64,000 nucleotides of DNA from Thermoleophilia bacterium. Its GTDB lineage: Bacteria > Actinomycetota > Thermoleophilia > Gaiellales > Gaiellaceae. Within the stretch, counting starts at the first letter, position 1. Each line of letters begins with the position of its first letter. Under the pieces are notes generated by a model. It was given only the letters and a program-made list of their open reading frames with translations. It ran no database searches and was not told where the DNA came from. The position numbers and the translations under genes are program-made. The stretch covers positions 1 to 64,000 of the forward strand of contig JADGPD010000002.1 in assembly GCA_017882615.1 (NCBI GenBank). Direction: 5' to 3'. This document shows positions 19,304 to 34,886 of this stretch, piece after piece.

Positions 19304-20563
19304 TCAAGGCACGCGCAACCGCGCCACAAAAAAACCGCTCGTGCGGTGCACGTGCGGCAAAGTGAGCAGAAACTCGGGATGGTGCGGGTGCGAGAACTCC
19401 GGCCAGAGCTCGCCCAGGGGCTCGGGCTCGAGGCCGGAGGCCGCGACGACGTCCTCGTTCTCCTCGCGGTTGATCGTGCAGACCGAGTAGGTGACGCTGC
19501 CGCCGGGGCGCACACGGGCGGCGGCGGCGCGCAGCAGCTCCAGCTGCAGCTCGGCCAGCGGGTGCGAGCGCCAGCGCAGGTCGGGGCGACTGGCGAGCAC
19601 GCCCAGCCCCGAGCAGGGCGCGTCCACCAGCGCCCGGTCGAAGCCGGCGAGCTCCGCGGGAAGATCGAGCGCGTCGGCGTTCAGGACGCGCACCGAGCCC
19701 GCGCCGAGGCGGCGACAGTTCTCGTCCAGCTCGCGCGCGCGGCCCTCGTGCTTTTCGATCGCGGTCACCTCGGCGCCGAGCGCGGCCAGCTGCGTCGTCT
19801 TGCCGCCCGGCGCCGCGCACACGTCGAGCACCCGCTCACCGTGCCGGGCGCCAACCGCCAGCCCGGCAAGTTGCGAGCCCCTACTTTGAGGCCAGACAAG
19901 CCCCTCCTTCAGGTTCTTCGCATCCACCCGCTTGACCACTAGAGCGCCCGGGATGAGTGGATCCGGATCGCCAACCGGCTCGCCGGCTACCTCGCCCGCG
20001 ATCAGTGTGTTTCTGCGCACCGCCGTCTCGGTCGCCTCGTTCTGGGCGCGCAGCAGCGCCGAGGCGTCGTCGGGGCCGAGCTCGCGCCAGAAGGTCTCGG
20101 CAATCCAGTCGGGGTAGGAGTAGCGCAGCGCCGCCTCGCGCGGCGTCCACTCCGGCAGGTTCTCGATCAGGGCGCGGGCGCCTTCGGACAGGCGGCGCAT
20201 GATCGCGTTCGTGAACTTGATCGCGTGCGGGGGCCCGTATTCGCGTACCAGCTCGACCGACTCGTTGACGGCGGCGTGCGCCGGGATGCCCGCCGAGAAG
20301 GCGAGCTGATAGGCGCCGAGCCGGAGCGCGGCGCGCACCGGAGGATCGAAGGTTCCGGGCGACTTCTTGCCCAGCTCGTTGATCGCGTGGTCGAGCGTGC
20401 GCACGCGCTGCACGGTGCCGTAGGCGAGCCTTTGCGCGAGCGCGCGGTCGCGATCGTTCAGCTTCCTGGCCTCGACGACGAAGGCGCGGTCGGCGTAGGC
20501 CTCCTGCTCGAAGACGCGCAGGATCGTCTTGAAGGCGGCGCGGCGTGCGGGCGAGACGCTCAT
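19304..20563 (-). CDS. rsmB: 16S rRNA (cytosine-C5)-methyltransferase RsmB
   Basis: N-terminal NusB-like domain; VLDVCAAPGGKTTQLAAL; DAPCSGLGVL. Confidence 0.95.
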   Translation of the reverse strand: MSVSPARRAAFKTILRVFEQEAYADRAFVVEARKLNDRDRALAQRLAYGTVQRVRTLDHAINELGKKSPGTFDPPVRAALRLGAYQLAFSAGIPAHAAVNESVELVREYGPPHAIKFTNAIMRRLSEGARALIENLPEWTPREAALRYSYPDWIAETFWRELGPDDASALLRAQNEATETAVRRNTLIAGEVAGEPVGDPDPLIPGALVVKRVDAKNLKEGLVWPQSRGSQLAGLAVGARHGERVLDVCAAPGGKTTQLAALGAEVTAIEKHEGRARELDENCRRLGAGSVRVLNADALDLPAELAGFDRALVDAPCSGLGVLASRPDLRWRSHPLAELQLELLRAAAARVRPGGSVTYSVCTINREENEDVVAASGLEPEPLGELWPEFSHPHHPEFLLTLPHVHRTSGFFVARLRVP

Positions 20564-20568
20564 CGCTA

Positions 20569-20730
20569 GTGCCCCTTCAAGTGATGTTTCCGAGTTGCTG
20601 GGTCGCTAGCACCAAGCGATGCTAGGACGCAGGGAGCGTTCGTACTGGATAGTACGGGCGCGACTGAGGACAACGCAGCGCGCCGCGTGGTAGCGGGCCA
20701 GAAACCGGAAGGTATCGCTTGACGGGGCAC
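20569..20730 (-). repeat. Structured intergenic element copy 1 (~162 bp)
   Basis: Highly similar to 33400-33562; imperfect terminal inverted repeats; nested hairpins. Confidence 0.9.
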
Positions 20731-20735
20731 AATCA

Positions 20736-21554
20736 CTAGCGCAGGCCGCGCAGATAGTCCGCGGCGGCCATTCGTTTCTTCCCTTCCGGCTGCACCTCGA
20801 GCAGCTCGAGCCCGCCGGCGACGAGCGCCGAGTCGGGCCCGGCCGGGCGCGCGCGCCAGACGAGCAGGCGGCGACCGTCCAGCTCGGCGCGGGCGCCGAT
20901 GTGCGGCGACAGCGCGCGGATGCGGTTCAGGTTTTCCTCGGGCGGACGGCTCCAGTCGAGCTCGCGGTCTTCCGGGCCGATCTTGGCCGCGTAGCAGGCG
21001 CCTTCTTCGGGCTGGGGCTGGAAGGCGGGCGCGGGCAGGATGCCGTCCAGCAGCGTGACCGCGAGCGAGGACGTCCTCTCGTAGACCGTTCCGGCGTCGT
21101 CCTCGGGCGTGAGCGGAAAGGCCGCCTGGGCCGCGATCGGGCCGGCGTCGAGCTCCTTGACCGTCTCGTGGATCGTCACGCCGGTCTCGGCGTCGCCGGC
21201 CATCAGCGCCCGCTCCACCGGCGCCGCCCCGCGCCAGCGCGGTAGTAGCGACGGATGGACGTTGAGCCAGAGCGCCCGCTCGAGCTGAGAGTCGGGGATC
21301 AGAACGCCGTAGGCGGCCAGCACGACGAGGTCGGCGTCGAGCTGGACAGAGGCGTCGAGCTTCTCGGGCTGGAGCACGGGGATGCCGAGGCGCTCGGCGA
21401 CCAGTTTCGCCGCCGGTGGACGGAGCTTGCGCCCGCGCCCGGCCGGGCGGTCGGGACGGGTGACGAGAAAGGCGATCTCGCGCCGGGCGGCCAATCCCTC
21501 CAGAACGTAGGCGCCGAAGGGCGCGGTCGCGGCGACGGCGAGGCGATCGGCCAC
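20736..21554 (-). CDS. fmt: Methionyl-tRNA formyltransferase
   Basis: LWLNVHPSLLPRWRGAAPVERALMAGDAETGVTI. Confidence 0.96.
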   Translation of the reverse strand: MADRLAVAATAPFGAYVLEGLAARREIAFLVTRPDRPAGRGRKLRPPAAKLVAERLGIPVLQPEKLDASVQLDADLVVLAAYGVLIPDSQLERALWLNVHPSLLPRWRGAAPVERALMAGDAETGVTIHETVKELDAGPIAAQAAFPLTPEDDAGTVYERTSSLAVTLLDGILPAPAFQPQPEEGACYAAKIGPEDRELDWSRPPEENLNRIRALSPHIGARAELDGRRLLVWRARPAGPDSALVAGGLELLEVQPEGKKRMAAADYLRGLR

Positions 21555-32760: not shown

Positions 32761-33395
32761 CTCCCGCTCGGCAGCTTCTCGGTCACCAGCGCCTCGATTC
32801 TCTCCACAACCTGCTCGACGCTCAAGTCGGTGGTGTCGATGTGCACCGCGTCGGGCGCGGGCTGCATCTGAGGTGCGTCGCGCTCGTCGCGCCGTCGCAT
32901 GTCGGCTGCCAGAGCCTTGGCTGGGCTGCCCGGACGCTCGGCCAGGCGCCGTCCCGCGCGCACGCCTTCGTCGGCGACCAGATAGACCTTGACCTCGGCG
33001 CCGGGCACGACGACACTGCCGATGTCGCGACCCTCGATCACCGAATCGCCGAGCGCGGCCAGCTCGCGCTGGCGCTCGCGCATGATCAGGCGCACCTCGG
33101 CCTGGCGCGCTACGAGCGAGACGACGCGATCGACCTCCGGCCGCCGGATCGCCTCGGTCACGTCGATGCCGCCGATCCGCGTATGCCCCTCGCTATCGAA
33201 GTCGATCGGATTGGCACGCCCGAGCTCTGCCAGCAGCGCTTCGTCTTCGAGCTCGGCGCCGCGTTCCGAGGCCAGCCAGGTCAGCGCGCGGTACATCGCG
33301 CCGGTGTCGAGATAACGAAAGCCAAGCTTGGCCGCGAGGGCCCGGGCCACGGTGCTCTTGCCGGCTCCGGCCGGCCCGTCGATCGTCACGATCAA
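32757..33395 (-). CDS. cmk: Cytidylate kinase
   Basis: TTG start; IVTIDGPAGAGKSTVARALA. Confidence 0.96.
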   Translation of the reverse strand: MIVTIDGPAGAGKSTVARALAAKLGFRYLDTGAMYRALTWLASERGAELEDEALLAELGRANPIDFDSEGHTRIGGIDVTEAIRRPEVDRVVSLVARQAEVRLIMRERQRELAALGDSVIEGRDIGSVVVPGAEVKVYLVADEGVRAGRRLAERPGSPAKALAADMRRRDERDAPQMQPAPDAVHIDTTDLSVEQVVERIEALVTEKLPSGR

Positions 33396-33399
33396 AGCT

Positions 33400-33562
33400 G
33401 TGCCCTTTCAGGTGATGCTTCCGAGGTTCTGGGTCGCAAGCACCAAGCGATGCTAGGACGCAGGGAGCACCCGTAGCCGCCGGCTACGGGTGCGACTGAG
33501 GACAAAGCAGCGCGCCGCGTGATCGCGGACCAGAAACCGGAGGGTATCGCTTGAACGGGCAC
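33400..33562 (-). repeat. Structured intergenic element copy 2 (~163 bp)
   Basis: Highly similar to 20569-20730; terminal inverted repeats; perfect central hairpin ACCCGTAGCCG/CGGCTACGGGT. Confidence 0.9.
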
Positions 33563-33569
33563 GAACAGC

Positions 33570-34886
33570 TCATTCCTTTTCCGGGACAAAGTCGCGCCTG
33601 GCAACCTCGTCCAGGAGCTCGAAGAAGTCCGGGAAGCTTACTGCGACGATGTCCGGGTCATCGATCTCCACGCCTTCGCGGGAGAGAATGCCGGCGATTC
33701 CGGCGAGCATGGCGATGCGATGGTCGTCGTGGGTCTCGACCAATCCGCCCTTGAACCGCGTCGGAACGCCGCGCACCCAGAAGCCGTCGGGCTCCGCGTT
33801 GACATGGGCGCCGAGCCCGTTCAAAGCCTCGGTCGTCGACTGGATCCGGTCGGACTCCTTGGCCCGCAGCTCCTCGGCGCCGCGCACGCGGCTGACGCCG
33901 TGAGCCATCGACGCCGCGAGCGCGAACAGCGGCAGCTCGTCGACCACGTTGGGCACCTCGTGCGACTCGATCGTCGTCGCCGTCAGCTCGGCCGAGCGAA
34001 TCCCGAGACTGCCAACCGGCTCGCCGCCGGAGGAACGCCGGTCGTAGACCGTCGTGCGGGCGCCCATGCGCTCCAGCACGCCGAGAAAGCCGATCCGGGT
34101 CGGGTTCAAGTTGACGTCGTGGATGCGCAATTCGGAGCCGGTGAGGAGCGAGGCGCCAACCAGGAAAGGAGCGGCCGAGGAGAAGTCGCCCGGGATGTCG
34201 AGATCGAGCGGCGGGATGCGCTCGGCCGGCCAGACGCTGATCTCGCTGCCCTCGTGGCGCACGCGGACGCCCAGCGAAGTAAGCATGCGCTCGGTGTGAT
34301 CACGAGTCGGCACCGGCTCGACTACCGTCGTCGGGCCGCTCTTCGCGAACAGCCCGGCGAGCAGGATCGCCGACTTGACTTGGGCGCTCGCCACGGGCAA
34401 GACGTATGTGGTCGGCTCGAGCGACCCGCCCGAGATGGTCACCGGTGCCGAGCCGTTCGTTGTCTCGACCTCGGCGCCCATCTGCCTGAGCGGAATGGCG
34501 ATTCGCTCGTGCGGGCGGCTGGAGAGCGATTCGTCGCCCGTAAGGACGAAGCGACCTTCCTGACCGGCGAGTACGCCCGCCAGGAGCCTGAGCAAAGTGC
34601 CGGCGTTACGGCAGTCGATCGGATGATCGGGCGGCCGCAGTCCGCGCAGCCCGACGCCCTCGATCCTGATCGTCCCCGGGCTCGGCTCGCTCACCGTCGC
34701 GCCAAGCGAGCGCACGGCGTCGAGGGCCGCATCGGTGTCGGCCGCGTGCCCGAAGCCGCGGATCTCGCTGACGCCGTCGGCTACCGCGGCCAACAGCGCG
34801 GCCCGCTGGCAGAGGCCCTTCACCCCCGGCACGGCAATGTCGCCGACCAACGCCGCCGCCGGCTCGACTCGCCGAGTAGCGCTCAA
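33570..34886 (-). CDS. aroA: 3-phosphoshikimate 1-carboxyvinyltransferase
   Basis: NAGTLLRLLAG, KESDRI, ETHDDHRIAM. Confidence 0.97.
   Translation of the reverse strand: MSATRRVEPAAALVGDIAVPGVKGLCQRAALLAAVADGVSEIRGFGHAADTDAALDAVRSLGATVSEPSPGTIRIEGVGLRGLRPPDHPIDCRNAGTLLRLLAGVLAGQEGRFVLTGDESLSSRPHERIAIPLRQMGAEVETTNGSAPVTISGGSLEPTTYVLPVASAQVKSAILLAGLFAKSGPTTVVEPVPTRDHTERMLTSLGVRVRHEGSEISVWPAERIPPLDLDIPGDFSSAAPFLVGASLLTGSELRIHDVNLNPTRIGFLGVLERMGARTTVYDRRSSGGEPVGSLGIRSAELTATTIESHEVPNVVDELPLFALAASMAHGVSRVRGAEELRAKESDRIQSTTEALNGLGAHVNAEPDGFWVRGVPTRFKGGLVETHDDHRIAMLAGIAGILSREGVEIDDPDIVAVSFPDFFELLDEVARRDFVPEKE

Follow-up and report, generated by a model that had tools for sequence, protein, structure and literature searches.

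fmt and rsmB in the window

The window, the whole stretch of 64,000 nucleotides analysed here, carries fmt and, downstream of it on the minus strand, rsmB (Table 1). Of the 172 nt of spacer between the two genes, 162 belong to a near-palindromic element, here called copy 1, which begins 5 nt from the rsmB start codon (ATG, read as CAT at 20561–20563 of the + strand) and stops 5 nt short of the fmt stop codon (TAG, read as CTA at 20736–20738). The original prediction had described the element as making up the whole intercistronic gap and had placed the sequence GAAGGGG inside its terminal inverted repeat, and both statements agree with our reading of the repeats and of the minus strand. The terminal inverted repeats are 13 nt long with one mismatch. 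On the fmt side, 6 nt (CAATCA, 20730–20735) separate the repeat end GGGGCA from the CTAG that holds the stop codon.

Copy 1 is predicted to fold strongly on both strands, with −93.8 kcal/mol (z −7.5) for the + strand and −78.4 kcal/mol (z −6.0) for the minus strand, which is that of the mRNA; none of 200 shuffles equalled either value. The + strand is the structural strand of this copy and is antisense to fmt and rsmB.

Table 1. Features of the element copies and neighbouring genes, in window coordinates.
Feature	Position	Strand	Evidence
Element copy 1, type A ends, 162 bp	20569–20730	+	Terminal repeats, fold, family search, empty site in four relatives
Left terminal repeat GTGCCCCTTCAAG	20569–20581	+	Direct reading; 12 of 13 bases complementary to 20718–20730
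Right terminal repeat CTTGACGGGGCAC	20718–20730	+	Direct reading
Conserved hairpin core (model R1)	20609–20688	+	98.9 bits, E 1.1e-22 (copy 1 belonged to the R1 training set); covariation on 84 copies
SD-like GAAGGGG for rsmB, within terminal repeat, 8 nt before ATG	20572–20578	−	−5.6 kcal/mol with anti-SD
fmt, upstream gene	20736–21554	−	NCBIfam TIGR00460, E 1.5e-55, slightly under its cut-off
rsmB, downstream gene	19304–20563	−	NCBIfam RsmB models, E 2.9e-83, under cut-off; orthologues adjoin fmt in relatives
CTAG, possible target duplication, rsmB side	20566–20569		Direct reading; YTAR-like flanks in the family; inference for copy 1
CTAG holding fmt stop codon, presumed insertion target	20736–20739		Direct reading; empty-site relatives keep TAG, then CC, then ATG
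Element copy 2, type A, fills aroA-cmk spacer	33400–33562	+	DNA similarity and covariance searches; same orientation to its operon as copy 1

Copies and empty sites

Searches of the genome that contains the window recovered 15 matches by DNA similarity and at least 17 with R1, a covariance model of the core. Copy 2 lies 7 nt from the aroA stop codon (33570–33572) and 4 nt from the TTG start codon of cmk (33393–33395), and the aroA-cmk site is without an element in the relatives G002–G005. The original prediction had proposed a comparison of fmt-rsmB spacers among relatives, and here the outcome was the same: the junction is empty in these four genomes of the same genus, with 2–5 nt between the genes (TAG-CC-ATG in three, TAG-TGCCC-ATG in the fourth; empty junction sequence TAGCCATG), while the more distant genus represented by G017 carries a type-B element there, an independent insertion. 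Most copies of the genome are polymorphic, flank searches giving empty sites or internally deleted remnants in relatives. In three such remnants (L106, L139 and L144) the outer stem alone is left, the hairpin having been lost by internal deletion. Another site, L051 (G000:C66:43536), compared with L092, L114 and L118, has the element between genes that read from the sequence as dnaN-like and recF-like, both on the structural strand; no element is present there in G003, G004 and G005.

R1 copies were found in 21 of the 31 genomes compared, including that of the window, at 1 to 45 copies per genome at least, since the number of candidates scored may have capped these figures. In a wider sample across the class, 71 of 199 genomes and 44 of 95 genera gave R1 matches. 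G009, from the same family, has 17–24 matches to IS5-like transposases, yet no R1 element. The copies used for comparison were 132, plus 20 from G106, which belongs to another order; they are mostly 159–172 bp long and contain no transposase gene.

Structure of the core

The core is conserved among the compared copies and reads TAGGACGCAGGGAGCG...CGACTGAGGACAACGCAG on the structural strand. In an alignment of 84 copies, 92.8% of the cells are paired, and changes on both sides occur in 15 of 22 pairs; none of 500 shuffles did as well. Fitting the alignment to the structure raises the pairing to some degree, but slid controls were just 19–47% paired. The structural strand had the lower folding energy in all 107 copies in which it was compared with its complement (mean −27 kcal/mol), although these copies are related and the counts hence not independent. 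Mismatches in the variable outer arms, spread over most positions, comprise 613 G.T against 53 A.C on the structural strand. This excess could stem from selection acting on a single strand, in the form of RNA or of single-stranded DNA, or from strand-biased C-to-T mutation. In all copies the internal loop of the core (within 20609–20688 in the window) has AGGAC on both strands, so that GGAC faces GGAC, and on the structural strand tandem G.A pairs might arise there. Rfam gave no match at the gathering score in the window; for the element copies of L016, L281 and L037 there was likewise no match when hits up to E 1 were admitted.

Ends, partners and target sites

The outermost 12 bp or so of the copies fall into three main kinds, with minor variants: type A (AGTGCYCC...), found in the window copies, type B (GARCTCG...), and type C (CAGGCTGYTGA...), found in G106. 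All three carry the same core, and types A and B occur together within one genome. The arms are nearly perfectly complementary in most copies whatever the kind of ends, with pairing scores biased upward by an arm search that preferred complementary arms. Five loci of G106 (L295–L299) contain elements of types B and C, type B nested inside type C, where it sits in the core at CTAG, and a chimera of 216 bp, which suggests nesting plus recombination as a route of end exchange.

Possible autonomous partners were recovered for two of the three kinds. G106 has an insertion sequence of 1428 bp with type-C ends (L293:2271–3698) and a transposase of 444 aa matching NF033581 (IS5 family) above cut-off, and G006 has several insertion sequences of about 905 bp with type-B ends (GAACTCGAATCAGAATGA...) and parts of an IS5-family transposase, NF033580, again above cut-off. 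A remnant transposase of the NF033580 IS5 family is present in G003, which belongs to the genus of the window. For type A, 12 genomes yielded no autonomous element with such ends, and the window's own genome, which is 91% complete, yielded no transposase of the IS5_3 or IS5_4 kind.

The IS5 group targets YTAR. Type-C elements have YTAR flanks on the two sides in 18 and 19 of 28 cases, and exact 4-bp repeats in 7 against 4.1 expected (p 0.09). Type-B elements are flanked by 3-bp direct repeats in 12 of 53 cases, where 3.3 were expected (0 of 5000 shuffles), and TNA is common among them; targets of 3 nt have been described for IS1031/IS427-like IS5 elements (PMC2516522). Target duplications of type A were not significant when anchored by end type. 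The unanchored test found little, as palindromic targets merge with the repeats, and it was the anchoring by end type that resolved type B.

Placement between stop and start codons

Among 124 elements, 37 (30%) occupy a co-directional junction and leave no more than 20 nt of it unfilled, compared with 1.9% of insertion slots; the genes were called by a crude codon-usage method and their starts are predictions, which makes any single distance approximate. On the gene-sense strand, tight type-A junctions in several genera have the form T-AG-TGCCCCTCC...GGAGGGGCACT-gATG or similar. Both neighbours are antisense to the structural strand in 60 of the 124 copies and sense in 27, and the remaining 37 lie between convergent or divergent genes.

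The original prediction had suggested insertion targeted to operon junctions. In its effect this was borne out by the empty sites and by the enrichment just given, while as a mechanism a TNA/YTAR target explains the placement better. The window contains 83 YTAR sites, with only 22 in coding sequence, which makes up 89% of the DNA, 18 over a stop codon and 43 elsewhere. Stop codons thus account for 18 of the 61 non-coding sites, meaning that about 30% of the tolerable targets are stop codons, near the observed 30%, and a dedicated targeting of operons is not needed; the agreement is a rough one, as the targets of type B are TNA. In GC-rich DNA a TNA/YTAR target consists largely of stop codons, and this, together with the loss of insertions within genes, can explain the position between stop and start.

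Ribosome binding site of rsmB

The SD-like sequence supplied by copy 1 pairs with the anti-SD at −5.6 kcal/mol, whereas the rsmB starts of the four empty relatives reach −0.9 to −2.1 kcal/mol and other gene starts −3.4 kcal/mol on average. In tested gene pairs, reinitiation after termination drops steeply past about 20 nt (PMC10666635), and a spacer of 172 nt would therefore need its own SD or a bridging structure. Fold prediction agrees with the claim that the terminal stem sequesters the SD, and gives the same pairing repeatedly among type-A copies: in the modelled free RNA the mean unpaired probability of the SD is 0.18 over 30 junction copies, and 0.19 in copy 1. With a ribosome masking the stop codon in the model, the mean rises to 0.31 and that of copy 1 falls to 0.02. 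A model in which the ribosome opens the stem thus has weak backing overall and fails for copy 1. Damping or coupling of rsmB translation by the mRNA-strand hairpin is a possible consequence of the predicted pairing. An intrinsic terminator or attenuator was dropped as an explanation because polymorphic copies are found whatever the orientation of the neighbouring genes.

Nature of the element

We conclude that the fmt-rsmB spacer is probably a non-autonomous, hairpin-forming transposable element similar to a MITE, whose movement in trans is most likely due to DDE transposases of the IS5 family. It is short, has no transposase gene, ends in terminal inverted repeats and is one of a dispersed set of copies for which relatives offer empty sites. 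MITEs are usually A+T-rich, a common and not a defining property, but the core of copy 1 has a G+C content of 0.65, and the genome 0.67. Types B and C have most of the characters expected of IS5-type MITEs, and type A would join them by core homology only. From the shared core and the CTAG/CTAA/TTAG/TCAG-like flanks we infer that type A, with the fmt copy, would move as types B and C do, in the IS5 manner and through a YTAR-like target, in which case the CTAG with the fmt stop codon would have been the target of copy 1. As such targets are rare within the genes of a 67% GC genome and often coincide with stop codons, surviving insertions would come to lie between stop and start. The type-A end reads GRAGGGGCACT, and the insertion would thereby bring an SD to the downstream gene in place of the 2–5 nt spacing of the empty site; pairing of this new SD in the hairpin of the mRNA strand could then damp or couple rsmB. 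Against this interpretation stand a core whose conservation and structure go well beyond what a passive MITE would lead one to expect, the missing autonomous type-A partner and resident IS5_3 or IS5_4 transposase, the lack of significance of the type-A duplications, and the 6 nt between the CTAG and the repeat end in copy 1.

The structural strand of the core could also give rise to a structured RNA, or a hairpin of single-stranded DNA, that has a function of its own, the MITE ends being just a vehicle for it. One core with three kinds of ends, the covariation, the G.T excess and the better folding of the structural strand in every copy speak for such a function, to be set against the lack of an Rfam match, the relatedness of the copies and the fact that C-to-T change biased towards an exposed strand could yield the same excess, and on balance we hold it to be possible but unlikely. 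With similar reserve, as a tentative proposal, we suggest that the core is a functional, strand-specific RNA structure or hairpin which has persisted across a bacterial class and travels by swapping the ends of different IS5-family transposons, and that type-A ends have become suited to leaving behind a stop codon and a ribosome binding site, whereby operons tolerate the insertion. A cis-acting RNA regulator, in which the terminal stem hides the SD until a ribosome at the fmt stop codon, at the base of the stem, opens it, and which would be retained for its coupling or tuning of the downstream gene, appears less probable still. The mostly paired SD within the repeat would suit it, as would the many type-A copies with a stop codon at the 5′ base and a start codon at the 3′ base, and the one orientation common to 60 of the 87 co-directional copies; yet the element is polymorphic among close relatives, in which the gene pair works without it, 37 of the 124 copies have convergent or divergent neighbours, it is the antisense strand that folds better, and ribosome masking exposes the SD only slightly in the mean over copies and does not expose it in copy 1.

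A repeat of the REP/BIME kind mobilised by a RAYT (Y1 transposase) we regard as very improbable. The element is indeed intergenic, hairpin-forming and strand-asymmetric, and Y1_Tnp genes occur in 19 of the 31 related genomes, but ten RAYT-like loci had no convincing R1 match adjoining them (one weak match, E 0.017), three loci examined carry other short repeats, the window's own genome has no Y1_Tnp gene, and the type-B and type-C ends match DDE-type insertion sequences. The three loci (L248, L249 and L242, in G002, G003 and G018) are single-copy Y1_Tnp genes flanked by a different short repeat, of GTGTCTGACACC or GTGCCTGGCACC type.

Relation to known repeats and significance

We found no publication on this element family in the open-access literature searched. 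With IS5-derived bacterial MITEs (IS427/IS1031-like) it shares small size, the absence of genes, inverted repeats of IS5 type, TNA or YTAR flanks and many polymorphic copies, and it differs from them in having one covarying core with several kinds of ends, a high GC content and no type-A partner found. REP/BIME sequences with RAYT resemble it as intergenic hairpins with strand asymmetry, whereas the element here is about 160 bp long, has DDE-type ends and shows no link to the RAYT genes of these genomes. In translational coupling hairpins the SD is paired in a stem that spans an operon junction. The same arrangement is predicted here, with the difference that the stem is a mobile insertion and regulation only a possibility. 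The nearest published parallel is RUP of Streptococcus pneumoniae (PMC3049150). Like RUP and BOX of that species, the element is an intergenic hairpin repeat (about 100–200 bp in RUP and BOX) with ends as in resident insertion sequences, structure predicted in transcripts and an old proliferation (PMC3049150). RUP differs in being AT-rich and in having ends that resemble IS630-Spn1, and the filling of a stop-start junction with an SD in the repeat is not reported for RUP or BOX in that paper (PMC3049150).

If our interpretation is true, a mobile hairpin enters tight stop-start junctions without obvious damage, by means of a target that contains the stop codon and an end that bears a ribosome binding site. 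A covarying core with interchangeable ends in many genera would be an unusual modular parasite, or a passenger RNA, and the filled and empty operons of related genomes would be natural pairs for testing translational coupling.
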